From assembly GCA_946623485.1 (NCBI GenBank), contig CAMORF010000008.1:1-19515 (forward strand): a stretch of 19,515 nt of DNA, read 5' to 3'. The translations under genes were made by a program, and so were the position numbers. The stretch comes from an uncultured Clostridia bacterium (GTDB lineage: Bacteria; Bacillota; Clostridia; Lachnospirales; Lachnospiraceae). The notes beneath the pieces are model-generated. The model saw only the letters and a program-made list of their open reading frames with translations, was not told the DNA's origin and made no database searches. Shown piece after piece: positions 1,464 to 15,968 of the stretch. Numbering within the stretch: the stretch's first letter is position 1; every line of letters starts with the position of its first letter.

Positions 1464-4400
1464 TTATCCTGTAAAAGTAACACTTGTCTGTGTCCTGGTA
1501 TCCCAGTGATATCCGGAAAACGGGCTTTGCGCCTCATTTTGATGAACCGTAATCTGGCGCAGGCTCTTGCATACGGCTACAATGCCCTGACCGGTTTTCC
1601 TTACAGATGCCGGAATGTCCAGCGAAGAGATCGCCGTCATGCCAAAGCATCTGTCTCCGAATTCTTCCAGTGTTTCCGGGAGCCGGACCTGTGTCAGGTA
1701 TCCGCACCTGAAAAACGCCTGTGTCCCAATCGTGCGGATTCCGTCTTCCAGCTCCACTGACTGGATGGAGGTCTTTGAAAATGCCTGCGCGCCGATTCCA
1801 GTAATCTCAAGGATTTCATCCCCTCGCCTGACATAATGGGGGATCCGCAGTTGAGGATTCGTGAAATCAAGCGTCCTGCCTGTCAGAGGATCCGACAGGC
1901 TTTCCCGCAGCAGCTCGGAAGTCAGTGTGACATTGTGCCTCACGCATGCTACGGCAAAGGACATTCCGTTCTGAACCTGAACCGGATCCGTGAGCGCATT
2001 TTCCATCCTGCACGATTCCAGCCTCCAGTTTCCATTATTTAATTCCGTGACCGTCCATTTCGTGCCCTGCGGGAGCCGGAATACCGCCTGAGATCCGCTT
2101 TTCAGTGTAAATATTCCCTGTGCGTCGGACGATCCTTGGCCTGTTTCTGTTCCTGACACAGCATCACGGATCTGATAGCGAAGATAGCTGCCAGGCATTG
2201 CCGCCTGGTCAATGGTCTGCGTGATCCGGAACCGGAACAGCTCATCCGTCTCAATATCCGTCTGTTTCTCCACGACAACCGTCTGCAGGTCATTTTCATT
2301 GACAAACGTATTCCCTTCACATCTGACAAGCATTCCATAGGATGGGTCTGACAGATCCAGGACCTCCCGGATCCGAAGGTCTCCCTCCTGCGCTTCGTGC
2401 TCTGTATAGTACAGCGTTGTCCTGACCTTTCCGGTACCGATCGCAATGGGAAGAATGTACTGTCCGGGGGAATCAGAAGTCCCTTCCCGGGTTTCTTTCC
2501 GCACCCGGATCATCCCGTCTTCCCCTGTCTGATGGAAAGCGGCTCCTTCCGGAAGAGTCCCCTGGCACTGGATCCAGTCAACTCCTGCTGCCGCATGCCA
2601 TGCTCCTTGTGCATACCGTTCCAGGCACAATGCCAGCACCGCGCCATCCGGAACCTTTTCCCAGCCTTTCTCTCCGGAAAGAAATGCTTTCCGGATCATG
2701 GAATCCTCATGGGCAGAAACAGAATGAACCTCATTGGTAAAGCAAAGATCAAAGACCTGGCCGGCAGCAGTTCCGGACATCTGCCGGCCGGACCCGGGCA
2801 CGCAGCAGACTGTACCGTAGATCACAGAGTCCTTTGAAACAAGGCCGCTTTCCAGTTCGGTTACTCTCCACTGCCGGCCAGGAGCAATGCCGGACAGTAC
2901 GACAGTCTGGTTTTCTCCCACGCAGACAATCCCGTCCGGAACCTCGCACCGGAGCAAAGATCCTTCTGACGCATCCGCAATCTCCACCATACCCTCCAGC
3001 GGGGCAAATGAACCGTGCGCACCCTGGATCTCAATCAGAAACGAAGACCTAAGGGCGCTGGCAGTTCCTTTTGCCCTTTCCTGCTGCACATACCCGGCTG
3101 CCGCTGCATCCTCAGGCTTCGCGGTGAACTGTTTCCGGAACATGCCCTGGCAGGTCTGTCCGTTTATGAACAATGCCTGGCTCAGGTCAGTCCCGTCTTC
3201 TCCCAGGATCCCGCTCTGCGGCTGGCCGTCAGCCGGATAAGCCTGGGGGCACGATGGATCCGGTTCTTCCGTCACCCGCCATGCGCATCCGTCCTTTGCG
3301 ATGTCCCGGAAGATTGCGCTCTTTCCTGCAGCAAGGCTGAAATGCCCGGTCTCATCGGTTTTGCCTTCTTCCCCGTCTGAAACCTGGAATCCGGCTTCCA
3401 CTGCCGGTGCAAGATTTCCTTCTGCGTCAGCGATCTCCAGCAGGAAGGAAAATGTTTTCTCCGATTCCTCCCCCTGATCATCCTCTTCTCCGAACATCGG
3501 ACTGAAGAAAAAGAAAAAGCCTTCTTTCTGCTGCCCGGTCATATTCCCAAACTCGAGGGAGACATTCGTGTACCCCGGATATGTTTTTACCGTGCCCGCC
3601 TCGATCACGCCCTGAAAAGCATCGACCACATGGTGATCCACAATGACACTGATCGCTTCCTCCCCGTTGAGCCTGATCCGTGCAGGAAATGCAACCGTGA
3701 ATCCGGACATTCCTTCCGGCGCGCAGGAAAACAGAGACACGTTCCCGGATCCGGCCTGGAAAAGCCCGGGATAGCCGGGGGAACAGACGGTTGTGCGGTT
3801 CTTATGGGTTCCCGACAGGACGGTCTTTGAGACCCGCAGGCTCCTTCTTTTCCAGCTGTTCCGGATGGTTACATATCTGCGGCTTCCCAGAAGCGGCATG
3901 GAAACTGCCGCAATCCCCTGGTTCACCGCTTCATAATCCTCCGGAAGATCCGTTTCCTGGATGACATAAGTCCTGAGCGCTTCCAGATGCTTCAGGATCA
4001 CATCCTTCCCGGCGCACGCAAGCGTGAAGGATCCATTCTCATCCGTTACAAACGTGGTATCCTCCATGCTCCCTTCCACGCCTGCGGCAGGATCGGCAAT
4101 CGCTTCCGGATGATCCATGTCAAAGGATGCCGCGTCCTCCCCCTCACGGACTTTCCACAGCCGGAATGTAAAGGGTTCCAGGCACAGCATGGCATCCCTG
4201 TGAAGCACCTCCTTATGCAGAACCAGCTCCTTCCATCTCCATGCATTTTCAATCGTGACCGATGCGCCCTCTTCTCCCAGCGTGCCGCCTGCAAATGTTG
4301 TCACGCCGGCATAGTTGCTTTGCGCGTTGATACAGGATTCTTCCTCCTGTACCTCAAACCTGCATTCCCCGCCCTGGGGATGCATCGCAATCACTTCTCC

Positions 4401-7400
4401 CGCATGGAGCAGCACGCAGCTGTCCTCATCTACGATATGTGCCTCCACAATCTGATTCTCCACCATTCCTTGATCCGGATCAACCGTCCAGTAAGGCTTT
4501 CCTGCCATGCTGTTTCCCTCCATGGTCACCCGCACACGGAAAACATCATCCGGAAGACTGGTTCCCTCCGGGATGCCAAGAACCTTCTTTGTCAGATACA
4601 GCGGCGGATACCAGGTATTTTCAAACCGGCACACGCTTCCGGCCGGCGTATCCTCCTGCTGCCTGGAAACCTCATAATCGGCCGAAAGGATCTCTTCCAC
4701 TTCAAGCTCCTCCCTTCCGGGTTCATTCTCAAAGACGGCCCGCTGTCCGGAACACAGGAAGAATAATCCATCCTGATTGGTCGTGTGCAGCATGTCATCC
4801 GCCTGCCAGACCTGCTGCTGCAGGGACGCATCCCCCTGCTTCTCCTCGAGGCGGTAGCGGCAGAGCGCTGCCGGTGTACCATTTCTGGTCAGGCAGAACA
4901 AAAATGGCTGCCTGACGTCTCCGTCCTCTGACGGGTTTGTGAGAACTTTTTCCACGATCAAGGTCGATTTCTCTTTTAACGTCACCTCCACGGCGTTACA
5001 TTGTACCAGGTCCCCATCCGGTTCCTCCTCGCTGATGCTGTAGAAGGACGCGCATTGGTAAGCATGCTGTGCCGTGGTCTGCCCTTCTCCTTCCCCGATC
5101 CCCGGGCCTTTCATATGAAGAAACAGATGTATGCTGTCCCCTGCATCCAGGATAAAATCATTTCCGTCCGTCATTTTCCGAAGATCTACCGCCACAGAGT
5201 GCACGAACCCAAGATCCTTGTTCCAGTCTTCTATACGGATCCATCCGTGATTGGTTGTCAGGACACTGTCCGTCTGCTCCCCCTGTCCGGGAAATGGAGC
5301 GTCTTCATCCTCACTCACCCAGATGACCGGCGCGATTTTACGGCGCTCAAGTGCTTCCGTGTCTATCTCCTCCAGAAACCCCTGCCAGGACGCGGCATCA
5401 AAACTGCGGCCTGGTTCCGCCCGTTCTCTTTCTTCTTTTCCCCGCTCCAGATGGCTGCAGACGACAAGATCCGAGATCGGCCGCGCGGACGGATTGGCGA
5501 CATCGATCCGGTAGGTATAACAGTCTTCCGGCCCGATCACCGCGCTTTTCCCGCCATCCGTAAAGTCCTCCCTGTCAGCCTTCACGGTAAGATCGATCCC
5601 ATCTGTCAGGCTGACCGCAGTATCTCCCGGGGACAGCGCGAGGGCATACAGCACCGTCCGGAGATTTGTGACACCATCCTCATCAATGTCCGGTCCGAAG
5701 GCTTCCAGCGCGTCTTTCTCTGCCCCGGCATATGGAACCACTGTTCCGTCATCACACGCCACCTCATCATCCGTTCCCAGGATCTGGCAGGCCGGATCCC
5801 CCAGCCCCTCTCCCGGCATTACGGCAGCAATATTCGGCATGCTATTCATGCTTTCCAGGTCTCTGTATGGACAGGTACAGCCAAACTGTACCCCGATTCC
5901 ATTCATCCACATCCCCTGATCCATGCGCGGAATCTGTTCGCTTCCCAGGGCAATGGAAACCTGAAGCACCACCAATGTCCTGCCTGTATTCCTCCAGTTT
6001 TTCCGGATGCCGCCGGAAGGATCGATCCGCACGCTGACATCCTTGCTTTTCCACAAAGAAGGGGTCACGAGCTGCCGGTCCGTATCTCCCATGACCAGCC
6101 CGGCCTTGATCCCGGCAGAAGGGTCAAAGATCACGCCTTCCGGAAGCAGGTCATATACCACGTATTGCGCGCGGTCCGGAACGGGCAGAGAAGCTGCCTC
6201 CCGGGCAATTCTCCTTGCTGCCTGCCGGCTGTAAACCTGGTATCCCTCCACCGCGCCAATGGTATAAGTGAGGCAGACTCGGCCATTCTCAGGATCATTG
6301 TCACGCGCCGCCGTTTTGAGCGCCCTTGCATGCTTTGCCAATTCTGTCAGCCTGGCAAAGGAATTCGCGCGCATGGAAGGAACCCCGTACAAAGACCGGG
6401 TAAGCTCCCCAAGCCCGGGCTCTGAATAATTGTCATAGACAGTTTCCCGTGTATCATGGAACCATCCGTCTGAAGAGGTGCCTGTGCTTCGTGCCAGCAC
6501 ACTTCCCAGATGCTCCAGGTTCCAAGCCGTCAGGCTGCCGCTTTCCCCATTCTCCAACAGGGCTCCGGCCGCCGGGCTTTCCGGACGGATACACAGGCTG
6601 CAATCAATGGTACAGGAAGAATCATAATCCACACAGCAATGCACCGCCTTTACCCGCCAGATCTTTTTCCGGATCTGTTCCTCCGAAAAGGTATAAACGA
6701 TCTTCCCGGAACTGTTCCATGGACATTCTGCTGCCAGTTCCCAGTCAGCGGACCCCTCATACATCGCATAGATGTGTGTCGATCTGTCCGCCCCCGGGCA
6801 CTCCGCTTCTGTCATCGGTGCGCAGACCTGGTCCTCAAACAGATCCATCCCCCTGTCCCGGATGGTCACACGCACACCGCTATAGCAGTAATCCTGCGGA
6901 CCGAGCAGCTGCAAAGCGCCGTTCCCCTGAGACTGGCTGGCAAGATAGACCACATCATCCACCGTAGTGACCTCATATCCGGATCCCTCCCGGTAGCTTC
7001 CTGCCGCAGGACCCTGCAGCTCATGGGTAAATGAATATCCTCTGCATTCGGATCGGATCCGCAGCGGGATCTCTCCCGCGCCGCTGCCTGTCTCCCGGGA
7101 CAGCCTGTATTCATTGATCCAGCCGCTCATCGTTTCTTCTTTCCCCGGATAGGAAACCGTACCGTCCGGCGCCATCTTCCCGGTCCATGCCCGGATCCCG
7201 ACATCGTCCCCCTTGTATTTCCATTGATAATCCACAAAGGTCCACGAAGCACAGGCCCCGGCCGCGCTATCCGGATCCATCCCGTCTGCAGGAGTAAGCG
7301 ACAAATCCGCATTCATTCCCAGCACAGAGCCATTTCTCTGAAGGGCATCCCTCCTGACAGCCGTCACCACGATGGTTGTCAGGTGAAACATCCCTTGCTT

Positions 7401-9326
7401 TACAAATTGGCTCAGGTCCTCTGTGGAAAGCTGTACGATGCATGTGCTGTTCTCCTCCCCGGCCTGATACTTCACAATGTTTCCCTGCCCGGATCCCTCC
7501 GCGTCCTTTGCTGCCCTCGTGACGCTTCCGACGACACACAGGCCGCCATCTCCAGACAGCCCCTCCCCGGACAAGGCAGCGTCCATCCGAAGCGACCAGG
7601 GCTGGTTAAACCGGCCCTGGCTGTCAACCTTCCAGGCGATAAAAACCAGGCGGTCTGCCTGACTGGACAAAAAAGGCGGAAGGCTGTCTCCCAGGACCCG
7701 TCTGACCTGGTCCTGCGTATATAATGCAGGCAGGCAGCTGATGGACCCGTCGGAATATGCATCTGCCGAAGCGCCCAGGATGGCTGCATAGGAGTCAATG
7801 CTCCCTGTCAGTTCATCCACCGGATTCTCCTGGATCGTCCCATCCGGCATCCTGACCGAAATCTGCGGCGTAATCGACCAGGCAGCCCCATCGATCAGGT
7901 CAAATATCAGAACCGGATGGTACAAAACCTGGAAAGCTGTTTTGGTTCCTGCCGTAATCTTCCTGAAATTAAAAAAGACAAGCATCCCCTGGTCATCCCG
8001 GTTCCAGTTAAATGGGCTGTTCAGGCTATTTGCCGGAGCATCCTTTGTCCCCCGCGGTACGCCAATCTGGGACGGCACAATCCCCTCTCCCCTGCGGTTG
8101 CACAAAAGAAGCTCCGGAATACGGATTTCAACGTCTCCCGGTTCCAGATCCACCGATGTATGAAACTCAACCTGATATTTGAGGGAAAAATCATCTGTCT
8201 TTAAAACAGCATGCAGATCCTCCTCATTGACATAATAATCCGAACAGGACCACAGCGGCCCTCCTGAGGAAAGCTTCCCTTTTTTCATCAGCCTCTTTCC
8301 GCCGGCAGAAAGCACGGTTGCCGCACCTGCCTCTTCCCTGGGCAAAGCAGCCAGCGCATCAAAGCTCATCGATTGCTCATACCCATAACCGCCGTCAGAC
8401 GTCTCACTCTCCCCATCCGTTTCCCCCGGATTCTCTGTTTCTTTCATGGTGAGGTCTGTATCCTTCTCTGAATCCTTTGTTTCCGCCCCGGAATCTCCTG
8501 TTTCCGTCCCGGAAACTGTGGCTCCCTTCCCGGAATCACGGATTCCATCTCCGGCATCACTGATTCCATTTCCGGAATCCACTGTGTTTCCATTTCCGGA
8601 ATCCACTGTTTCCTTCTCTGAACTTCCTGTGCCCTTCCCTGAATCCGGAGCGCCTTCACCATCCTGACCCCTTTCGACCGTTCCATCCACAGCGTTCCTT
8701 TTTCCGGCGATTCTTGTTTCTCCGCCGGCAGCTGCGCCCGCTTCCGGGGGATTCCCATTCAGTTCAACCGGGCCTGCCAGGATCACACACTCTGCCCCTG
8801 GCTGCGTCTGGTTTGCTTCCTCTTTGGCCCGGTCTTCCGTTGCCGGATCCGTTTTTGGCAAACCGTCGGCTGCAGAATCCGAAGCAGGAATGCTCCCGCC
8901 AGGCTGCGTCTGATCCCCCATTGGCATTGCCTGTGTCTCCTGAGATTGTCCTGCATCCGAAGTCTGGGAATTTCCGGAAGCCTGGGCATTCCCAAAGTCC
9001 TGAGAAGTTCCGGAAGAGCTCTCCTCCAAGGTGTCTGGGATCTCTTTGGATCCTTCTGCCGCACCTGCCCCGGCTGCAGGCGCAGGAGCATCTTTTCCCT
9101 CCTTCGCAGCCACATCCGGACTGCTTTCCAAAAGCGCAGGCTCCGGATCCCCCTTGCCCGCTTCATCCGCAGACTCCTGCGCCAATGTCCCGCCTCCCGC
9201 AAGAGGTTCTGACGGAAGGCAATCATCTGCGAAGACTATGCCGGCCAGAGCCGTCAGATAGATCAGCACCAACAGGATCGCGATTCCCAATATCAGTGTC
9301 TTTTGTTTGATCCTTATCTCTCTCAT
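1464..9326 (-). CDS. Giant multidomain surface adhesin with seven Cna B-like modules and a C-terminal leucine-rich-repeat cap
   Basis: The product is 2620 aa. Residues 1-33 are a signal peptide (basic start, long hydrophobic core, VFA/DD). Residues about 36-335 are low-complexity and Gly/Ser/Asp/Glu/Pro-rich, with DSGNG-type repeats, and probably form a disordered stalk. Residues about 360-1250 are a large beta-rich region; it resembles N-terminal regions I know from long Clostridia Cna B proteins, and it contains an EF-hand-like DIDEDG at 1213-1218. Residues 1456-2462 hold seven tandem Cna B/SpaA-like modules. Most show a strand-A lysine (TKKVLG, HKEVLH, SKTVLS), a mid-domain VTE or VQE glutamate and a closing NxW or FxN asparagine, the usual isopeptide triad. 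Residues about 2500-2595 form a BspA-like leucine-rich repeat (IGAQAF, IGTQAF). No LPxTG motif or C-terminal membrane helix is present. The start overlaps the previous stop as ATGA, which implies translational coupling. The ligand is unknown. Confidence 0.85.
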   Translation of the reverse strand: MREIRIKQKTLILGIAILLVLIYLTALAGIVFADDCLPSEPLAGGGTLAQESADEAGKGDPEPALLESSPDVAAKEGKDAPAPAAGAGAAEGSKEIPDTLEESSSGTSQDFGNAQASGNSQTSDAGQSQETQAMPMGDQTQPGGSIPASDSAADGLPKTDPATEDRAKEEANQTQPGAECVILAGPVELNGNPPEAGAAAGGETRIAGKRNAVDGTVERGQDGEGAPDSGKGTGSSEKETVDSGNGNTVDSGNGISDAGDGIRDSGKGATVSGTETGDSGAETKDSEKDTDLTMKETENPGETDGESETSDGGYGYEQSMSFDALAALPREEAGAATVLSAGGKRLMKKGKLSSGGPLWSCSDYYVNEEDLHAVLKTDDFSLKYQVEFHTSVDLEPGDVEIRIPELLLCNRRGEGIVPSQIGVPRGTKDAPANSLNSPFNWNRDDQGMLVFFNFRKITAGTKTAFQVLYHPVLIFDLIDGAAWSITPQISVRMPDGTIQENPVDELTGSIDSYAAILGASADAYSDGSISCLPALYTQDQVRRVLGDSLPPFLSSQADRLVFIAWKVDSQGRFNQPWSLRMDAALSGEGLSGDGGLCVVGSVTRAAKDAEGSGQGNIVKYQAGEENSTCIVQLSTEDLSQFVKQGMFHLTTIVVTAVRRDALQRNGSVLGMNADLSLTPADGMDPDSAAGACASWTFVDYQWKYKGDDVGIRAWTGKMAPDGTVSYPGKEETMSGWINEYRLSRETGSGAGEIPLRIRSECRGYSFTHELQGPAAGSYREGSGYEVTTVDDVVYLASQSQGNGALQLLGPQDYCYSGVRVTIRDRGMDLFEDQVCAPMTEAECPGADRSTHIYAMYEGSADWELAAECPWNSSGKIVYTFSEEQIRKKIWRVKAVHCCVDYDSSCTIDCSLCIRPESPAAGALLENGESGSLTAWNLEHLGSVLARSTGTSSDGWFHDTRETVYDNYSEPGLGELTRSLYGVPSMRANSFARLTELAKHARALKTAARDNDPENGRVCLTYTIGAVEGYQVYSRQAARRIAREAASLPVPDRAQYVVYDLLPEGVIFDPSAGIKAGLVMGDTDRQLVTPSLWKSKDVSVRIDPSGGIRKNWRNTGRTLVVLQVSIALGSEQIPRMDQGMWMNGIGVQFGCTCPYRDLESMNSMPNIAAVMPGEGLGDPACQILGTDDEVACDDGTVVPYAGAEKDALEAFGPDIDEDGVTNLRTVLYALALSPGDTAVSLTDGIDLTVKADREDFTDGGKSAVIGPEDCYTYRIDVANPSARPISDLVVCSHLERGKEERERAEPGRSFDAASWQGFLEEIDTEALERRKIAPVIWVSEDEDAPFPGQGEQTDSVLTTNHGWIRIEDWNKDLGFVHSVAVDLRKMTDGNDFILDAGDSIHLFLHMKGPGIGEGEGQTTAQHAYQCASFYSISEEEPDGDLVQCNAVEVTLKEKSTLIVEKVLTNPSEDGDVRQPFLFCLTRNGTPAALCRYRLEEKQGDASLQQQVWQADDMLHTTNQDGLFFLCSGQRAVFENEPGREELEVEEILSADYEVSRQQEDTPAGSVCRFENTWYPPLYLTKKVLGIPEGTSLPDDVFRVRVTMEGNSMAGKPYWTVDPDQGMVENQIVEAHIVDEDSCVLLHAGEVIAMHPQGGECRFEVQEEESCINAQSNYAGVTTFAGGTLGEEGASVTIENAWRWKELVLHKEVLHRDAMLCLEPFTFRLWKVREGEDAASFDMDHPEAIADPAAGVEGSMEDTTFVTDENGSFTLACAGKDVILKHLEALRTYVIQETDLPEDYEAVNQGIAAVSMPLLGSRRYVTIRNSWKRRSLRVSKTVLSGTHKNRTTVCSPGYPGLFQAGSGNVSLFSCAPEGMSGFTVAFPARIRLNGEEAISVIVDHHVVDAFQGVIEAGTVKTYPGYTNVSLEFGNMTGQQKEGFFFFFSPMFGEEDDQGEESEKTFSFLLEIADAEGNLAPAVEAGFQVSDGEEGKTDETGHFSLAAGKSAIFRDIAKDGCAWRVTEEPDPSCPQAYPADGQPQSGILGEDGTDLSQALFINGQTCQGMFRKQFTAKPEDAAAAGYVQQERAKGTASALRSSFLIEIQGAHGSFAPLEGMVEIADASEGSLLRCEVPDGIVCVGENQTVVLSGIAPGRQWRVTELESGLVSKDSVIYGTVCCVPGSGRQMSGTAAGQVFDLCFTNEVHSVSAHEDSMIRKAFLSGEKGWEKVPDGAVLALCLERYAQGAWHAAAGVDWIQCQGTLPEGAAFHQTGEDGMIRVRKETREGTSDSPGQYILPIAIGTGKVRTTLYYTEHEAQEGDLRIREVLDLSDPSYGMLVRCEGNTFVNENDLQTVVVEKQTDIETDELFRFRITQTIDQAAMPGSYLRYQIRDAVSGTETGQGSSDAQGIFTLKSGSQAVFRLPQGTKWTVTELNNGNWRLESCRMENALTDPVQVQNGMSFAVACVRHNVTLTSELLRESLSDPLTGRTLDFTNPQLRIPHYVRRGDEILEITGIGAQAFSKTSIQSVELEDGIRTIGTQAFFRCGYLTQVRLPETLEEFGDRCFGMTAISSLDIPASVRKTGQGIVAVCKSLRQITVHQNEAQSPFSGYHWDTRTQTSVTFTG
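1557..1829 (-). other. BspA-like leucine-rich-repeat segment of the giant adhesin
   Basis: This encodes residues about 2500-2590. Repeats of the form ITGIGAQAF..., RTIGTQAFFRC..., LPETLEEFGDRCF... and DIPASVRKTGQGI... match the LRR_5 pattern of BspA-type surface proteins, about four repeats long. The protein ends about 30 residues later, so the segment forms the extreme C-terminal cap where a wall anchor would normally be. Confidence 0.75.
1941..4961 (-). repeat. Seven tandem Cna B/SpaA-like modules in the giant adhesin
   Basis: The modules begin near residues 1456, 1576, 1701, 1829, 2060, 2209 and 2348. Spacing is about 115-150 residues, except module 4, which is about 230 residues because of an insertion. 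Each opens with a strand containing Lys-Lys or Lys-hydrophobic and carries a central glutamate such as WRVTEEP, WRVTELE or WTVTELN. Modules 1-6 close with FENTW, IENAW, IRNSW, FING, FTNEV or FVNEN. These are divergent protein repeats, not recent DNA duplications. Module 7 lacks a clear closing asparagine motif. Confidence 0.7.
8322..9221 (-). other. Low-complexity, probably disordered stalk of the giant adhesin
   Basis: This encodes residues 36-335, which are rich in Gly, Ser, Ala, Glu, Asp, Gln and Pro with almost no long hydrophobic stretch. Residues 228-290 carry imprecise DSGNG, DSGKG, DAGDG and DSGAE repeats. At DNA level a 20-bp unit is repeated exactly at 8566-8585 and 8590-8609. The composition fits a flexible spacer crossing the cell wall. 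Confidence 0.7.
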
Positions 9327-11623
9327 CTTTTCCCCCTCTTTTGCATGAGTGTGACGTGTACCAGCAACGTCGTGATCATTCCTGCCGCGGCAAAAGCGAT
9401 CAGGAGCCCGATTCCGCTTCCGCCGGCAGAAGGCGCAAACAGACCGGAAGAAGTTTTTTCATTTTCAAAAAGAAGCTCCCGGATTCCATCCTGAACCACA
9501 AGACGCGAATATCCGTCTCCCTCCGGAACAACCTGCCGGTATCCAAGTGTTTTTTCTTCCCTGACACTGAACCGGCTCCCTTCCTCCATTCCAAGAAAAA
9601 CCGCCTGCTGACCGGCATGCAGGGAAAAATGGCCCTGCCCATCTGTCAATTGCGCTTCTTCCGACACCAGCGTTCCGCCTTCCTCTGCCAGGTAATAGGG
9701 TACCTGCTTTGCCGGCTTACCATCCTCTCCCAGAAGACAGAATGTAAAACCATGGCTCCGGTCACCGGAACGAAGGGATTTCTTCACAACAAAATCTGCC
9801 AGGCGGTTTGTCAATGTGATCCGGGTTCTGGAAGAAACAGCACCTTTCCATGTAACGCTCCCGGATGGCCGGAAGAAGCCATCCTGAGGGCCAACCTCCT
9901 CCACACGGGCATCGGATCCGGACGCAATCCCCTCTATGCAGGCACGTTCATTTCCCTGTATCTCAAACACACCATTCTCGTCGGTTGTTCCGTACCTGAC
10001 AGGATCTCCTTCCTCCAGGCCGGTCAACACAACCTGAACCTCCTGCAATGGGCTTCCATCTACGGTTACCCGGATGGGAAAGCTTCCCCGGAGCGGCAGC
10101 GCAATTCCATCCGGCCACAGGATCCTTTTGGTAATCACCAGCGAACCCTGTGCAGGATCCGGATTCTCCTCCGGAAGATAACGGTTCACATACCTGGCAA
10201 GGCTTCCATTCCGGCCGACGGTTCCACTCAGTACTGCAGAGGACGCAGGGATCACCCGCTCATAATGGGCATCACTTTGCTCGGCCACCTCCCACAGATC
10301 GCCCACCGTGACCTCCTCAAAAAGAGCACTCTGCCCTCCCCGAAGGAAAAATGACCCATCACGCCCGGTCCTGAGGGGAACCGTATCCCCCTGGGAATCG
10401 GACGCCGGCACAAGGTTTTTCCCGCCGCTTCCGGACGGATCCACCCATTCCTGCGAACTGCTGTCAAACACCCTGTACCGGATGCCGGCTGCCCGTTTCC
10501 CGTTCAGCGTCAGGCAGAACGCAAAAAGATCATCCTCCGGCGCCCTGCTTCCGCCGGCGGCATCCAGGACTTCCTTGGTGACAGACAGGCATGGCGCATC
10601 CGGAGCATGGTTGATGAATACAAGCTTCCGCTCGCCATCGATTATCGTCTGTAAGGAATCCATGTCACTCTCCCCGGCCATGGACACGGAACCCGTGCCA
10701 AGCGCAAGAAGCATCCCCGCGAAAGCCACAGCAACCAGAGGATGCCCGCGAAACCGCTTCCTGTACTTTGCATGCCGCGCCGCAATCAGGCCAATCACCA
10801 GCATGCTGACAAGAAATGCGCAGATCAGTCCGGAAAAAGGCGTATCATCCAGCGTCCGCACCGGCTGTGTGCGCTGGGATGTATACTGCTGCGTGGTTCT
10901 GCGGCGCATTGTCCGATCCTTGGGCGTAGCCTCTTTTTCAGGCATGTCCGTTTCCTTGCCTGTTTTTTTCTCTTCTCTTTTCTTTTTCGGCATCTTTGTT
11001 TTCTCTGAAGTAACATCTGTTTTCTCCGAAGGAACCTCTGTGTTCTCTGAAGTGACTTCTTCCGTCTTTCTCATCGTAGCGGTTTCCGTTTCGCTCCATG
11101 CCACCTGAACAGGCCCCGGCTCATCTGACAGATTAACCGTAAGAATCTCTCCCTTCGGCCACACATCCACGTTCCTGACAGGCCCCACCCAGTCATGCTT
11201 GTGCTGCACGTATGATGGCAATGCCAGCAGCGTATCATCGATCCGTCCGTAAGGATTGCTGGCTGACGCATGAATCAGCCACGCTCCTTCCTTCAGCCCT
11301 GCAAATGTGCAGGTTCCGTCTTCCGATGTGACAGCTTCATGCCGTTCCAGCGCCTTTCCATCTATTGTCTGTGTCCCGCAGACGTCCTTCTCCTGTCCCT
11401 GAAACAACAGACCCGACAGCTGCTTTGTCATCTGCTCCGCCAAAACAGACGGCCTGAAGCGAGGCAGCTGCCCCATATTCCAATTCAATGTGATGCTGCC
11501 GTCCGACTCATTCACCGAGCCGACCCGGCAGGCCTCGAACAGGACGCCCCTGCCCGAAGCCTGCTTTGTCTGCTTCAGATGAACGGTGATCGAACAGTTC
11601 CCGATCCCTTCCGTTCTATCCAT
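9323..11623 (-). CDS. Apparent fusion of a small pilin-like protein and a three-module Cna B surface protein
   Basis: The product is 766 aa. Residues about 10-165 resemble a small ancillary pilin (SITVHLKQ start, a CTFAGLKEGAWLI strand, LLALPSY..., and a pilin-motif-like VDVWPK with K157). A Lys/Glu-rich linker with heptad repeats follows (189-240), then TPFSG plus a membrane helix (263-283) and a basic tail (RHAKYRKRFR). Directly after come a second hydrophobic segment resembling a signal peptide (295-316, VSMA/GES), three Cna B-like modules (from about 346, 494 and 610), and a C-terminal APSAGG, membrane helix and basic end. It thus reads as two sortase-substrate-like proteins joined in frame. 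No signal peptide precedes the first half, and the upstream open frame (overlapping the pilin tail) encodes none. The start at 11623 has a GAGGAAGG ribosome binding site, 20 bases after the pilin stop. The stop overlaps the next start (ATGA). It may be an ancillary pilus subunit, but its topology is unresolved. Confidence 0.8.
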   Translation of the reverse strand: MDRTEGIGNCSITVHLKQTKQASGRGVLFEACRVGSVNESDGSITLNWNMGQLPRFRPSVLAEQMTKQLSGLLFQGQEKDVCGTQTIDGKALERHEAVTSEDGTCTFAGLKEGAWLIHASASNPYGRIDDTLLALPSYVQHKHDWVGPVRNVDVWPKGEILTVNLSDEPGPVQVAWSETETATMRKTEEVTSENTEVPSEKTDVTSEKTKMPKKKREEKKTGKETDMPEKEATPKDRTMRRRTTQQYTSQRTQPVRTLDDTPFSGLICAFLVSMLVIGLIAARHAKYRKRFRGHPLVAVAFAGMLLALGTGSVSMAGESDMDSLQTIIDGERKLVFINHAPDAPCLSVTKEVLDAAGGSRAPEDDLFAFCLTLNGKRAAGIRYRVFDSSSQEWVDPSGSGGKNLVPASDSQGDTVPLRTGRDGSFFLRGGQSALFEEVTVGDLWEVAEQSDAHYERVIPASSAVLSGTVGRNGSLARYVNRYLPEENPDPAQGSLVITKRILWPDGIALPLRGSFPIRVTVDGSPLQEVQVVLTGLEEGDPVRYGTTDENGVFEIQGNERACIEGIASGSDARVEEVGPQDGFFRPSGSVTWKGAVSSRTRITLTNRLADFVVKKSLRSGDRSHGFTFCLLGEDGKPAKQVPYYLAEEGGTLVSEEAQLTDGQGHFSLHAGQQAVFLGMEEGSRFSVREEKTLGYRQVVPEGDGYSRLVVQDGIRELLFENEKTSSGLFAPSAGGSGIGLLIAFAAAGMITTLLVHVTLMQKRGKR
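9326..9436 (-). other. C-terminal sorting-signal-like tail with APSAGG in place of LPxTG
   Basis: Residues 730-766 show APSAGGSGIG, a hydrophobic helix (AFAAAGMITTLLVHV) and QKRGKR. The stretch aligns with the pilin tail LPLTGGSGII...TAAAGM: the glycine-rich junction and helix are alike but the recognition motif differs. It is probably a cell-wall sorting signal variant or a plain membrane anchor. Confidence 0.6.
10670..10837 (-). other. Fusion junction: back-to-back membrane segments inside the 766-aa protein
   Basis: Residues 263-318 hold TPFSG, helix 1, a basic loop (ARHAKYRKRFRGH), helix 2 and an Ala-x-Ala-like signal peptidase site. This is the order expected if the sorting tail of one surface protein were joined to the signal peptide of the next. 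No stop codon, and no good internal start with a ribosome binding site, was found at the junction. Confidence 0.6.
10997..11059 (-). repeat. 21-bp (7-residue) tandem repeat in the linker of the 766-aa protein
   Basis: Three in-frame copies encode EVTSENT, EVPSEKT and DVTSEKT (residues 189-209), and a decayed fourth copy, KMPKKKR, follows. The DNA units are similar but not identical. The repeat lengthens a charged linker between the pilin-like domain and the first membrane segment. Confidence 0.7.
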
Positions 11624-11643
11624 ATCGCATTGCCCTTCCTCAG

Positions 11644-13299
11644 TCAGACCTGTTCTCTGCTGTTCTTTCTGCCCTGCCCGGATTCCCGCACAAACAGGAG
11701 CACCATCAACGCCATTCCTGCTGCCGCCGTGATAAGGATCACGATGATTCCGCTGCCGCCGGTGAGCGGGAGGGTGATCCCCTTATGGTTCGCTGCCGCC
11801 ACGATCACCGTTCCTTCCCGGTCTGCTGCCTGCAGGATACGGCTGGTTCCTTCTCCCCCTTCCGTGCTGATCTGCGTGCCATTGACCCTGGCTGTAAAGC
11901 TCCCGCTGTTGATTACCTGTGGCTGGCCCTCTTCTGCGGCGGAATCCGGGATAATCTCAATTTTAATGGGATTCATCATCAGGCTGTATCCGCTCGGTGC
12001 CTTGACTTCTTTCAGATAATAGGTTCCGGCATCCAGTCCCGTAAAATCAAGAAGCCCGTTTTCATCCGTTACCTGTGCCTGCCGGAATGGCTCCTGGGCA
12101 AGCATCTGTGCTGCACTGCTGCCCACCGGCGCTTCTTTGTAAAGAGCAAATTGAGCCCCTGCAAGCTTCTGTACACTCCCCGCGTCCCGGTCAAATTTCT
12201 CGACTTCAATTCCAAAACTGTAAACCTTTGTGTTATCATTTATCTCCTTCGTCTCATCCGGTTTCAACGGATCATAGCTGTACTGCAGCTGTACCTTATT
12301 CTCATTCCCATCAGCAGCCAGGCTCACCTTCTCATTTACCGTAGCGTTCAAAGCAAGCACCAGATCTGTATTATGATGCTCCTGATTCTGCAGATAGCTC
12401 CCGGAAAGGTTCACCGTCAGAACCGTACACCCGTTATCGTCTGTAGCAATGTCCTGGGTATAATCTGTTCCCAGGGTCAATGTATCTGTTCCGGCGGAAA
12501 GCCTGATCGTTGAAGGCTGGAGGGTCAGGCCCTTCGCCATCGTATCAATCAGTCGAAACGTCGGATTCTTTCCATCCTGGAAATAGACTTCCGTATACGC
12601 CGGGATCTTTGTGGTGATCGTGTACTGGACCGTATCTCCGTTCGCTACCGTATCCTTCTTCCCATCGTAACTGAGGGTATTGGAATAGGCGCCCTTCGCC
12701 TCATGAATGACCTTCTGCAGCCCGACGGGCGATCCCTTGGGCGACGCCGTGACATCGTAGATCCATCTGTCAAGCGCAGTGGAGTCCGTGCAAGGAAGGG
12801 AAACCAGGAAAGGGGCTGCCGGAAAATTGCCCGGCTTCGTGGCCGTCTCTAAAACCAGGTAGATCCCGGCGTTTTGTGTCGTCCAGCTGCACGATCCCCC
12901 TGACAGCGGCTTCTCCTCCAGCTTATCCGTCATCGAATCATCATCTACCTGCAGCGCAAGCTGATCCGCAAGCGTCTGGAGTTTTGCCGCAGGATACGCG
13001 CCGAACGCATCGGGATTGAAGCTGCCCTGGCCTGGATATACAAATCCATTGACGATATCCCAGTTCCAGCTGCCGTCATTCTGGGTAAATGACATGACAC
13101 GGTATGCCGTATACGCGGATCCTTCCGGGTTATAAGATTCTCCTGACTGCGGGGTAATCGTAAGGGTCATCTCCTTGTGAACCGGAAGGGAATCCTGCGC
13201 TGCGTCCGTGTTTGATCCCGCTGCCGCCAGCGATGCCGGCAGCGCTGCGATCATGAGTGCAGAAATGAGTGTAAAGGTACAGAATCTGTTTTTTCGCAT
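11644..13299 (-). CDS. Sortase-dependent backbone pilin with LPLTG anchor
   Basis: The 551-aa product is the probable major pilus subunit, secreted and then joined head-to-tail by the sortase. The start at 13299 is chosen because CAGGAGGTGTTCT directly precedes it and a signal peptide begins there (MRKNRF..., ending ASLAAAG near 28); an in-frame ATG 45 codons upstream has neither. Residues about 40-190 form a pilin N-domain ending in WIYDVTASPK, a pilin-motif equivalent whose K188 is the likely cross-linking lysine. A middle beta domain (about 205-355) follows. The SpaA-like domain (about 361-450) starts IEVEKFD and carries the E-box YLKEVKAPSGY. The sorting signal is LPLTGG (510-515), a hydrophobic helix and a basic tail (RKNSR). 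It lies 447 bases after the sortase gene and 20 bases before the 766-aa gene. The function is well supported by motifs; the precise pilus type is unknown. Confidence 0.9.
   Translation of the reverse strand: MRKNRFCTFTLISALMIAALPASLAAAGSNTDAAQDSLPVHKEMTLTITPQSGESYNPEGSAYTAYRVMSFTQNDGSWNWDIVNGFVYPGQGSFNPDAFGAYPAAKLQTLADQLALQVDDDSMTDKLEEKPLSGGSCSWTTQNAGIYLVLETATKPGNFPAAPFLVSLPCTDSTALDRWIYDVTASPKGSPVGLQKVIHEAKGAYSNTLSYDGKKDTVANGDTVQYTITTKIPAYTEVYFQDGKNPTFRLIDTMAKGLTLQPSTIRLSAGTDTLTLGTDYTQDIATDDNGCTVLTVNLSGSYLQNQEHHNTDLVLALNATVNEKVSLAADGNENKVQLQYSYDPLKPDETKEINDNTKVYSFGIEVEKFDRDAGSVQKLAGAQFALYKEAPVGSSAAQMLAQEPFRQAQVTDENGLLDFTGLDAGTYYLKEVKAPSGYSLMMNPIKIEIIPDSAAEEGQPQVINSGSFTARVNGTQISTEGGEGTSRILQAADREGTVIVAAANHKGITLPLTGGSGIIVILITAAAGMALMVLLFVRESGQGRKNSREQV
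11647..11772 (-). other. LPLTG cell-wall sorting signal of the pilin
   Basis: Residues 510-551 are LPLTGG, a hydrophobic segment of about 22 residues and a basic tail. This is the canonical three-part sortase substrate signal, and the only canonical LPxTG in the window. Confidence 0.92.
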
Positions 13300-13305
13300 A
13301 GAACA

Positions 13306-13311
13306 CCTCCT
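13306..13311 (-). promoter_or_regulatory. Ribosome binding site fixing the pilin start
   Basis: AGGAGG on the minus strand lies 6 bases before the ATG at 13299. It favours this start over the in-frame ATG at 13434. Confidence 0.85.
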
Positions 13312-13373
13312 GTAAAAAATGTGAAATAGATAGGAAATAGATGTGAGCCTTTCGGCCGGTGACGATCCGGCAG

Positions 13374-13398
13374 GCTGGCTGAAAGGAAGACAGCCAGC
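13374..13398 (-). other. Hairpin in the pilin mRNA leader
   Basis: The 8-bp arms at 13374-13381 and 13391-13398 are perfect reverse complements around a 9-nt loop, and further CCGG pairing is possible outside a small internal loop. It lies about 75 bases before the pilin start. No T-run follows, so a terminator is unlikely; an RNA stability or processing role is possible. Confidence 0.45.
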
Positions 13399-13486
13399 AA
13401 ACCGGCATACATATAGAACAGAAAACGGATCCATCCGGGAGTACGGCAGGTTTTCTTCGCCGGCTCCTGATCCGGTTTCTTACTGA

Positions 13487-13525
13487 AAATGATGGATGCA
13501 CAGGCAAATGATGGATGCGCCAGGC
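13487..13525. repeat. Two-copy tandem repeat in the pilin upstream region
   Basis: Two adjacent units of 19 and 20 bases (13487-13505 and 13506-13525) share aaatgatggatgc followed by caggc. They differ by one inserted base and one substitution. This is a small local duplication in non-coding DNA. Confidence 0.7.
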
Positions 13526-13650
13526 AACAGATGAAGTTTTTTATTGGGGATTTTTATGGATGAATCTTCCGCGTGAAACTTCTTCACAGATCGAAATGGA
13601 TTGCCAATGAACATCTTCCGGTCAGAGAGAAACAAAGAAGTAACTTGTGT

Positions 13651-13674
13651 TTAGGATCTGTTACAGAATAACTT
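13651..13674. repeat. Partial copy of the palindromic element found at 1300
   Basis: This 24-nt stretch starts ttaggatctgtt and ends ataactt. It matches 1300-1323 apart from two compensating single-base indels. The second, inverted arm present at 1347-1368 is not recognisable here, so this looks like a decayed or half copy. Confidence 0.55.
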
Positions 13675-13692
13675 GTACATCTGACTTGTCCA
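13665..13692 (-). promoter_or_regulatory. Possible secondary promoter for the pilin gene
   Basis: On the minus strand TGGACA (13687-13692) and TATTCT (13665-13670) are 16 bases apart. The match is modest. It would give the pilin gene a leader of about 360 nt, independent of the sortase promoter. Confidence 0.3.
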
Positions 13693-13746
13693 AACGCTCA
13701 TCTGCTGCGTTGGAAAGCCTCGCCGTAGTTACAGACGGGAACTTCT

Positions 13747-14559
13747 TCAGGAAGCCCTTCTGACAAGAAGAAATAAGAAGAAGAGCAGGAGGATGGTTGC
13801 GGGAACCCACCACCACATTTTCCAGAAAACCAGAGACAGGAGCCGTTCCGGAAAGGATGCTGAAAAGATGCCCGGATCTGATTGCTGCGTATCTTCCGGC
13901 ACACGTTTTGCATGGACATAAAGCCGGTGTGTATTGATCCCATAGGGAGTACATGTGATCAGTGTGAGGAGATCCTTCCCTTTTTTGATCTTCAGAGGAC
14001 CGGTTTCAGAAGGAAGGACGGTTTCATTTCCGGTCATCTCGTAACACAGGGTTTTCCCGAGGGTATGGACCTCAATGCGGTCACCGTCACGAAGCATATC
14101 AAGATTCGTAAACAGTGTCCGGTCAGGAAGCCCTCTGTGCGCTGAGATGCAGGTATGGGTTCCAGGGCCGCCTACCGGAAGGCTGGTGCCCTCCAGGATT
14201 CCCGCCCCTTCCATCAACGCCTGATCCCCTGTGCCGATGAAAAGCGGCAGGATCAGCTCAAGGGCAGGGATCCGGATCCACCCTGCAAGGCTTGACTGAT
14301 CCAGGCAAAGAACACGTGCTTCCTTCTCCCACTTTTGGAACGTACCTGCCCTTTCTCCTGCCAGATAACGGTTATAATCCATCGCCTTCGCCAGCCGCAT
14401 CCTGCAATCGGAAGAATCCTCGATCTCTTGACAGACGGCAATTACATCGCCCGAGATCCATGTGTTATAAAGCCGTGACAGATACGGATAATCCATTAAC
14501 AGCAGGAAAAACAAAAAGAAAAAAACAAGAACAAACGTACGAAGTTTTCTTTTTCTCAT
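13747..14559 (-). CDS. Class C-type (pilus) sortase
   Basis: The 270-aa product is a membrane cysteine transpeptidase expected to polymerise the LPLTG pilin and attach partner proteins. It has an N-terminal membrane segment (about 9-22), a catalytic domain and a C-terminal membrane segment (about 248-266) with a basic end, the topology of class C enzymes. Catalytic residues are visible: H141 in ISAHRGLPDRTLF, C203 in TLITCTPYGINTHR, and R212. GAGILEGTSLPVGG is also typical of the class. The usual DP(F/W/Y) lid motif before the core is not seen; the stretch there is WEKEARVLCLDQSSLAG. The start is the first ATG after an in-frame TAA three codons upstream, but no clear Shine-Dalgarno sequence precedes it. 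A strong promoter lies about 110 bases upstream. It is the first gene of the pilus locus. Confidence 0.9.
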   Translation of the reverse strand: MRKRKLRTFVLVFFFLFFLLLMDYPYLSRLYNTWISGDVIAVCQEIEDSSDCRMRLAKAMDYNRYLAGERAGTFQKWEKEARVLCLDQSSLAGWIRIPALELILPLFIGTGDQALMEGAGILEGTSLPVGGPGTHTCISAHRGLPDRTLFTNLDMLRDGDRIEVHTLGKTLCYEMTGNETVLPSETGPLKIKKGKDLLTLITCTPYGINTHRLYVHAKRVPEDTQQSDPGIFSASFPERLLSLVFWKMWWWVPATILLLFFLFLLVRRAS

Positions 14560-14570
14560 GGTGTTTTACA

Positions 14571-14638
14571 GAAGATGTCTTGAATGTCATACAATTTGCG
14601 ATATAGAGATGCCTTGAATGTCACACAATTTGTGATAT
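14571..14638 (-). repeat. Two 34-bp direct repeats in the sortase leader
   Basis: Units 14571-14604 and 14605-14638 are directly adjacent and differ at about five positions. Unit 2 contains the perfect 11-nt palindrome cacaatttgtg (14624-14634); unit 1 has a decayed version. They lie between the promoter and the sortase start, where a repressor or an RNA-binding regulator could act. Confidence 0.7.
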
Positions 14639-14671
14639 GGATTTGATATTTGATGTGTATCAGATGAAAGT

Positions 14672-14700
14672 ATAGTACACCTGCTCTGCATACTTGTCAA
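14672..14700 (-). promoter_or_regulatory. Promoter of the sortase-pilin locus
   Basis: On the minus strand a consensus -35 box TTGACA (14695-14700) is followed after exactly 17 bases by TACTAT (14672-14677). An overlapping TATACT is also present. The expected start near 14665 gives a leader of about 105 nt containing the two 34-bp repeats. Confidence 0.65.
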
Positions 14701-14762
14701 CTGCAAATTGCTTTCCCACTGCATTGCACCTGGTGCCCTGAAACGGCACGCCTCTGACCGTC

Positions 14763-14837
14763 CCTGCGGCTTGCCGGAATCCATCCGGCAGGCAAGCTTG
14801 CCGCCCGGAATGATGACAGTCCGCAGGAAGCACTGAA
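14763..14837. repeat. 75-bp palindromic intergenic repeat, copy A
   Basis: It aligns without gaps to 18146-18220. Its features are a flanking inverted pair (cctgcgg at 14763-14769 and ccgcagg at 14821-14827), an inner stem tgccgga/tccggca with a 5-nt loop, and a conserved atgacagtccgcagg end. Copy A also has the perfect palindrome ggcaagcttgcc. It is REP-like, with no coding capacity. Confidence 0.75.
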
Positions 14838-14842
14838 ACGTG

Positions 14843-14878
14843 AACCCCCCGGCAGCCGAAAGCCTGCCGGGGGGTTTT
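14843..14878. terminator. GC-rich hairpin, probable terminator between the Lys/Ala-rich gene and the pilus promoter
   Basis: A perfect 13-bp stem (14843-14855 with 14864-14876) with an 8-nt loop is followed by TTTT on the plus strand. On the minus strand, where the genes are, the 3' side has only a weak T-run (TTCACGTTTC). Its place between two minus-strand units suggests it ends transcription from the 221-aa gene, but the better T-tail faces the other way. Confidence 0.5.
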
Positions 14879-14904
14879 GTCATACAATCCATTCAATTCC
14901 CGGA

Positions 14905-15095
14905 ATCGATCCGTTCACGGGATCTATGATCGATTCGCATAATCAAAGATCAGTTCACAATCGAAGATCAATTCACAATCGAAGATCAGTTCACAATCGA
15001 AGATCAGTTCACAATCGAAGATCAATTCACAATCGAAGATCAATTCACAAGACCAAAAATCAATTCACAGGAACAACGATCCATTCGTAAAATCA
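14905..15095. repeat. 18-bp tandem array with a GATC in each unit
   Basis: Five near-identical copies of gatcarttcacaatcgaa run without gaps from 14948 to 15037; the only variable base is the a/g. Degraded copies on both sides extend the array to about 14905-15095. The outermost unit reaches the last codons and stop of the 221-aa gene (gatcgatctttgat), so the array may have grown out of that sequence. The unit length is a multiple of three. Confidence 0.85.
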
Positions 15096-15758
15096 AAGAT
15101 CGATCTTTCCCATAAAGGTATCGTTCAGTACATAATAAGCCGCATTATCTTCCGGCTTCAGATACAGATTGATGGTCTGCAGCTCGGATGCTTTTTTCTT
15201 CAGTTCACCAGTCCATACCTTCTTCACCTGATCCGTGATCTCGCTGACCTTGATATCCTTGCCAAAATACTGCAGGGAAATGCTTTCCTTCACTTCAGCC
15301 TTATTCGCAGCAGCCTTCTTCACCGTGCCGGCTGCGGAATCTGCAGCTTTCTTCACGGAGCTTCCGGCCTTCTTCACGGTTTCCTCTGCAGCCTTTCCTG
15401 CCTCCTCTGCCTTCTTGCTGACTCTCTTTGCAGAAGCTTCCGCTTTTGTTTCCGCCTTTTTCACTTCCGCTTTGGTCTCGGAAACCTTCTCTTTTACTTC
15501 CTTCTCAGCCTTAGCTGCCTTTTCCTTCACTTCTTTTTCAACCTTGGCTGCCTTTTCGTTTACTTCCTTCTCAGCCTTGGCCGCCTTTTCCTTTATTTCC
15601 TTCTCAGCCTTGGCCGCCTTTTCCTTTACTTCTTTCACTTCCTTTTCAACCTTGGCTGCCTTTTCCTTTGCCTCTTTTACAGCCTTGGATGCCTTCTCTT
15701 TCACCTCAGCCTGAATCTCTTCCTTCTTCACCGCTGAAGTTTTCCTTACTTCCTTCAT
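15093..15758 (-). CDS. Lys/Ala-rich hendecad-repeat protein with a DUF6465-like C-terminal domain
   Basis: The product is 221 aa and its function is unknown. The start at 15758 is set by an AGGAGGAGG site 5 bases upstream; an in-frame ATG 23 codons earlier has no support. Residues about 10-155 consist almost only of Lys, Ala, Glu and Val and should form a long helix or coiled coil. Residues 31-99 are built of 11-residue units of the type KEKAAKAEKEV. Residues about 110-155 are more basic (VKKAGSSVKKAADS) and resemble histone H1-like tails. Residues about 160-221 form a compact domain (SLQYFGKDIKVSEI, INLYLKPEDNAAYYVLND), which I recognise from memory as the DUF6465 type found in Clostridia. 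No signal peptide or membrane segment is present, so it is cytoplasmic. A DNA- or nucleoid-binding role is an inference from composition only. It has its own promoter. Confidence 0.88.
   Translation of the reverse strand: MKEVRKTSAVKKEEIQAEVKEKASKAVKEAKEKAAKVEKEVKEVKEKAAKAEKEIKEKAAKAEKEVNEKAAKVEKEVKEKAAKAEKEVKEKVSETKAEVKKAETKAEASAKRVSKKAEEAGKAAEETVKKAGSSVKKAADSAAGTVKKAAANKAEVKESISLQYFGKDIKVSEITDQVKKVWTGELKKKASELQTINLYLKPEDNAAYYVLNDTFMGKIDL
15462..15668 (-). repeat. 33-bp (11-residue) tandem repeats in the Lys/Ala-rich gene
   Basis: Six imperfect units encode KEKAAKVEKEV, KEKAAKAEKEI, KEKAAKAEKEV, NEKAAKVEKEV, KEKAAKAEKEV and KEKVSETKAEV (residues 31-99); an extra KEV follows the first. Such DNA repeats can vary in number between strains. 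Confidence 0.85.
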
Positions 15759-15763
15759 AAAAA

Positions 15764-15772
15764 CCTCCTCCT
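15764..15772 (-). promoter_or_regulatory. Ribosome binding site fixing the start of the Lys/Ala-rich protein
   Basis: AGGAGGAGG on the minus strand lies 5 bases before the ATG at 15758. It rules against the longer in-frame start at 15827. Confidence 0.85.
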
Positions 15773-15863
15773 GATGCATACATAATATACAAACCCACCA
15801 CGTGCCAGGAGCATGAAGCACCATCATGCAACCGTCCCGGAGAATATCGCATTCCCGTTGTGG

Positions 15864-15892
15864 ATGATACCCTATTCATGCGCTATTTTCAA
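15864..15892 (-). promoter_or_regulatory. Promoter of the Lys/Ala-rich protein gene
   Basis: On the minus strand TTGAAA (15887-15892) and TATCAT (15864-15869) are 17 bases apart, each one base from consensus. The leader would be about 100 nt. Confidence 0.65.
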
Positions 15893-15923
15893 GCCTTCAC
15901 AGGCAAAAACACAGTTATACATG

Positions 15924-15949
15924 CAGTGCAGGCTGTGGAGGCTGCAGTG
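15924..15949 (-). terminator. Possible weak hairpin terminator behind recG
   Basis: The 8-nt arms at 15924-15931 and 15942-15949 pair at seven of eight positions around a 10-nt loop, about 20 bases after the recG stop. A TTTTT run follows on the minus strand, but about 15 bases later, which is further than usual. Confidence 0.3.
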
Positions 15950-15968
15950 GGTTGCTGCCATCTGCAGT

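Follow-up and report, generated by a model that had tools for sequence, protein, structure and literature searches.

The stretch of DNA analysed here (the window) comprises 19,515 nucleotides of contig CAMORF010000008.1 from an uncultured Clostridia bacterium of the Lachnospiraceae (GenBank assembly GCA_946623485.1). On its minus strand, to which all window coordinates below refer, it carries a 766-amino-acid (aa) open reading frame (ORF, 9323..11623) without interruption, located in a sortase-pilus operon with a class C sortase, a backbone pilin and an adhesin-like protein. The ORF and its relatives identify a fused D1-CnaB gene. Behind nine hydrophilic residues (1-9), the protein presents a D1-type pilin domain (residues 10-162, 11138..11596), a variable Thr/Glu/Pro/Lys-rich linker (residues 163-254, 10862..11137) and the sequence RTLDDTPFSG with a first transmembrane segment (TM1; residues 256-282, 10778..10858). 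These are followed by a basic loop, predicted from its charge count to lie inside (residues 283-294, 10742..10777), a second segment (TM2) resembling an internal signal peptide (residues 295-316, 10676..10741), three CnaB-type (DUF7601) repeats (residues 317-725, 9449..10675) and an APSAGG sorting-type tail with a TM and a basic end (residues 730-766, 9326..9436). Hydropathy places TM1 at 266-282 (Kyte-Doolittle value, KD, 2.85), TM2 at 297-313 (KD 1.95) and the tail TM at 738-754, and the loop RHAKYRKRFRGH after TM1 has a net charge of +6. A sequence-only reading of this DNA had described two surface modules end to end, joined through a tail helix, a basic loop and a signal-like helix, and this arrangement is borne out by the uninterrupted ORF, the D1 fold prediction, the three repeats and the order of TM1, charged loop and TM2. 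Two of its details hold in part: TPFSG is present in the window protein and is not kept as a sorting motif (relatives read TPLSG, TPVSA, TPLSS and SPLHG), and the proposed Ala-x-Ala site is indeed a cleavage-type site after the helix that reads Ser-x-Ala here (SMA/GE, a putative signal-peptidase cut after A316 according to the site pattern). We lean towards the interpretation that the gene encodes a two-module pilus polyprotein, in which the D1 head would be exported via TM1 and the backbone pilin joined at K157.

The N-terminal half is predicted to adopt a D1/CnaB-type pilin fold by an AlphaFold2 (AF2) model, Foldseek and VIA, and hhalign aligned the window N-domain with ten small D1 proteins at a probability of 98.2 over 136 columns. 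The Pfam model GramPos_pilinD1 did not match the window N-half; of two D1 relatives scanned with Pfam, one passes this model and the other lies below the cut-off. The domain has a single invariant lysine, K157 (11153..11155), kept in 17/17 sequences of alignment A5 and 15/15 of alignment A2. It stands in the context W(P/M/I/L)K and aligns with the PK lysine of D1 relatives, a position that suggests a role as the linking lysine of the pilin motif. Given that the D1 head keeps an invariant lysine at this position, the head would still act outside the cell. Averaged over 105 pairwise comparisons, identity reaches 0.60 in the N-domain and 0.55 in the CnaB half, against 0.23 in the linker and 0.24 in the loop with TM2; D1 is thus no less constrained than the exported half. 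In the latter, Pfam DUF7601 (PF24547) matched three stretches, and three invariant K/E/N sets are predicted to be CnaB isopeptide triads, beyond which this half has no invariant lysine. Its C-terminus reads xx(S/A/T)xGGxG, mostly with P, followed by a TM and a basic end in 15/15 rows; the final sorting-type signal of the window protein is APSAGG and not the canonical LPXTG.

The fused layout recurs among relatives. Matches were found in 12 of 61 related genomes (window counted) and in 11 of 19 genomes examined from the genus, with full-length fused relatives in G015 and G008 (55% identity each), G002 (50%) and G009 (49%), and more distant matches in G011 and G001. A first scan of the genome contigs gave no relative, and a contig scan with alignment A2 gave four loci, on the same contigs as those of G015, G008, G002 and G009. 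A protein database of 5.8 billion entries returned 15 matches, all fused and 728-892 aa long: P0002 is the window protein but for one residue, and the other 14 are 44-57% identical. With the 3228-aa ORF of G008 added, which lies outside the length range of the database search, the near clade counts 16 proteins, all of them fused and starting without a signal peptide. The two complete far-clade proteins, P0019 (99% identical to G011) and P0022 (almost identical to G001 on inspection by eye), are fused as well and begin with a hydrophobic signal-like segment ending FA/C or PA/C at the cysteine equivalent to C10; this count omits P0020, which starts inside D1 and has another end sequence, and P0021, which has internal deletions. 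Regarding the N-domain cysteines, C10 is kept in 17/17 sequences, C105 in 16/17 and C32 in 15/17 (near clade only); this conservation may reflect a disulfide, a former lipobox or another role. One frame without a break runs through the internal signal-peptide-like helix in the window and its relatives, and the loop with TM2 is 34% gapped between proteins, yet the frame is kept in 16/16. The records of four genomes name uncultured Lachnospiraceae RUG11222, RUG12671 and RUG14439 and Lachnospiraceae UBA3711, the prefix RUG presumably denoting rumen genomes. A side observation concerns G008, where a further in-frame fusion joins the CnaB half to the giant adhesin (L029, 2095-11718), giving the 3228-aa ORF with a second junction of tail TM and signal helix; the adhesin retains its own ATG there, preceded by a GAGG-like site.

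No signal peptide was found upstream of the first half, where the 53-codon in-frame open extension is hydrophilic, nor in any of the three reading frames across the 130 bases preceding the start in the window, G015, G008, G002 and G009. The length of the open extension varies among genomes. A hidden upstream signal peptide was rejected, as the sole hydrophobic stretch there belongs to the tail of the backbone pilin and lies in the frame of that gene. Across 18 proteins, net charge averages -0.6 (-2 to +1) in the 20 residues preceding TM1 and +7.6 (+5 to +13) in the loop, and TM1 hydropathy ranges from 2.29 to 3.25. This charge distribution favours an N-out/C-in orientation of the first TM and, combined with the well-established positive-inside rule, predicts that the loop lies inside and both halves outside. 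Since near-clade proteins have no signal peptide, TM1 would then be a type III, N-out first segment. The sequence-only reading had pointed to this same conflict, a first half placed outside with no signal peptide before it, and the conflict is real. A cut separating the two halves is likely, judging from the site pattern after TM2. A review on Gram-positive surface proteins calls the mechanism for N-out proteins without a signal peptide unclear (PMC5817068).

How the two modules came together is suggested by D1 genes of other genera. Of 397 family genomes, 23 (the window's genome counted) contain a match to the N-domain profile, and 26 matches lie outside the window; three of these (G131, G340 and G229) reach the edge of the locus ahead of the N-terminus and were set aside. 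In each of the remaining 23, D1 is preceded by a signal-like hydrophobic segment. In 21 it lies near the protein start, and 12 of these 21 are proteins of 207-308 aa with one signal-like segment and one tail TM, the tails of the small D1 proteins carrying KTGD, LPQTG or other sequences. In the other two, the segment lies within a longer ORF, after a class C-type sortase (G165) or after an adhesin tail with YPMTGG, a TM and a basic stretch (G206). Among six small D1 genes seen in wider context, a class C sortase adjoins four (L065, L071, L072 and L073), and for the other two (L069 and L070) the adjoining class C sortase was recognised by eye. In other genera, D1 occurs as a free-standing gene complete with signal peptide and membrane tail, and these comparisons support an origin of the two-module gene by gene fusion, one of the options of the sequence-only reading. 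The likely ancestor is a D1 gene that carried a signal peptide and lay next to other genes of a sortase operon, its tail having been joined to the signal peptide of the next gene. Joints of tail TM and signal helix before D1 were also observed in two other genera, at L067 (G206, 7614-16001, minus strand) and L062 (G165, 4790-6379). The inner ATG of G165 follows AAGGAGG, therefore its sortase-D1 ORF may merely miss a stop; in the adhesin-D1 ORF of G206, no start preceded by a good site was evident. Sortase fusion as a habit was considered and rejected: among the matches listed for the 397 genomes, family class C sortases have open frames of 238-430 codons by eye and fusion is rare, not absent, the fused sortase of G165 lying outside that list.

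Assembly of the pilus could proceed as follows. An ancestral gene for a basal-type pilin (signal peptide, D1 and membrane tail) would have joined, in frame, with the gene that follows it in the operon, which encoded a CnaB surface protein equipped with a signal peptide and a sorting signal of its own. A single polypeptide would be made, with TM1 inserting N-out/C-in as a reverse signal anchor and taking the N-tail of about 260 residues across the membrane. TM2 would restart translocation as an internal signal peptide, signal peptidase probably cutting after A316, and the CnaB half would be exported and sorted through its tail. The class C sortase would link K157 to the backbone pilin, and the base would be kept in the membrane by TM1, perhaps together with TM2. 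The export of D1, the cut, the linkage and the roles of base and tip are what we infer here. A bolder version, which we hold only tentatively, has both pilus ends derive from one polyprotein, with a membrane-held D1 base (linking lysine, no LPXTG) whose N-terminal part of about 260 residues crosses via the reverse signal anchor and without a signal peptide, a tip-type CnaB subunit and a split by signal peptidase; such a split, if true, would fix a 1:1 ratio of base and tip.

Several points weigh against an exported D1 head. Topology, cleavage and linkage are all predictions, and standard Sec export does not readily account for the transfer of some 260 N-terminal residues that no signal peptide precedes. 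The first AF2 model gave the N-half low confidence, and the proline before K157 varies (M, I or L in 5/17). A cleavage-type site follows TM2 in 18/18 proteins under a permissive pattern without a chance control. The starts of P0003-P0016 were taken from the database, and upstream DNA was read in five genomes only. Additionally, in the window ATG227 and ATG239 follow AAGGA before TM1, so that a D1-less product is conceivable, and the annotated starts have Shine-Dalgarno matches of only 4 bases. A smaller but substantial probability therefore goes to a first half that stays cytoplasmic, with TM2 alone as the signal peptide of the CnaB half, TM1 topologically frustrated or non-spanning, and D1 acting inside, for instance in timing the export or folding of that half. 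The lack of a signal peptide in 16/16 near-clade proteins and the presence of at least three N-domain cysteines in all 18 proteins counted would suit such a location. However, the sole invariant lysine of the N-domain occupies the linking position of a pilin head that works outside, which argues against a cytoplasmic first half, and the loop charge favours both halves outside. The linker moreover resembles the Pro/Thr/Lys/Glu-rich stretches of surface proteins, which we count against it too.

That the CnaB half is made mostly from an internal start, the fused ORF overstating the fusion protein, seems improbable to us. Candidate starts of this kind do exist: besides ATG227 and ATG239 of the window, G011 has a GTG with AAGGA before TM2, G165 an ATG with AAGGAGG inside its sortase-D1 ORF, and the giant adhesin of G008 retains its own start. 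In contrast, none of five near-clade loci has an in-frame start with a match of at least 5 bases in the stretch from the end of TM1 to TM2, a weak test given that the annotated starts themselves match at only 4 bases, and the frame is maintained throughout the near clade despite the gaps in this region. The assembly error named by the sequence-only reading is hardly credible. The genomes are metagenome-assembled genomes (MAGs), public chimeras occur, and G001 has a run of 119 N bases at the junction. Nonetheless, the layout is common to proteins of about 50% identity and recurs in 16/16 near-clade and 2/2 complete far-clade proteins and in MAGs from two different assembly series; an assembly or sequencing error is thus not supported. 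P0022 reads through the gap of G001, whose split gene was rejected as a true split on account of the N run. Split two-gene versions among near- and far-clade relatives did not emerge either, as a search with the N-half alone gave only P0017 (D1 half with a CheW-like protein) and P0018 (D1 half with giant-adhesin sequence), each on a single contig below 2 kb and read as misassembled chimeras.

The pilus polyprotein that we favour has partial counterparts. In Bradyrhizobium, FbcH (cytochrome b/c1) is likewise one polypeptide with an internal signal peptide and an expected signal-peptidase cut, but it comprises respiratory membrane proteins, unlike sortase-assembled surface proteins. The stand-alone D1 proteins of other genera (KTGD or LPQTG tails) share the homologous domain and the operon type, and differ in having their own signal peptide and in being unfused except in G165 and G206. 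Compared with basal pilins of sortase-dependent pili, such as L. rhamnosus GG SpaB (PDB 7cbs; PMC8244301), the 766-aa protein lacks an N-terminal signal peptide and an LPXTG tail and is fused to a second surface protein; its first module ends in TL/MD--P and then TM1 in place of LPXTG. Type III membrane proteins (PMC5817068) are N-out and have no signal peptide, and an N-out/C-in first TM without a preceding signal peptide is predicted for the 766-aa protein too, whereas its N-tail, of which export is a prediction, is about 260 residues long and contains a folded pilin domain. In open-licence literature, titles and abstract beginnings gave no description of a signal-peptide-less pilin or a sortase-pilus polyprotein, which weakly suggests their absence. 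Each part belongs to a known kind, and a pilus polyprotein of natural origin whose pilin head has no signal peptide would be a new combination. If true, it would represent a natural polyprotein route to Gram-positive pilus assembly, possibly fixing the ratio of its two parts. Fused relatives with and without an N-terminal signal peptide offer a natural comparison for N-out export, with the linking lysine as a possible readout.

The neighbouring genes lie on the same strand. The class C sortase (13747..14559) scores above the cut-off of NF033745, and the backbone pilin (11644..13299, NF033902) is of the SpaH/EbpB type with LPLTGG; its start at 13299 was chosen within an ORF that opens at 13434. 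The 2620-aa adhesin-like protein (1464..9326), whose gene overlaps the stop of the 766-aa gene by ATGA, has an N-terminal signal-like helix, DUF7601 and BspA-type leucine-rich repeats. Hydropathy detected no tail TM in this protein, which like its relatives ends in BspA-type repeats, so sortase may not attach it to the pilus. Between recG and the sortase lies an Ala/Lys/Glu-repeat protein with DUF6465 (PF20069; 15093-15827, minus strand), and similar ORFs occupy the same place in L030-L033. Finally, the window's genome has a further class C sortase on another contig (G000:C140:3017-3655, plus strand).
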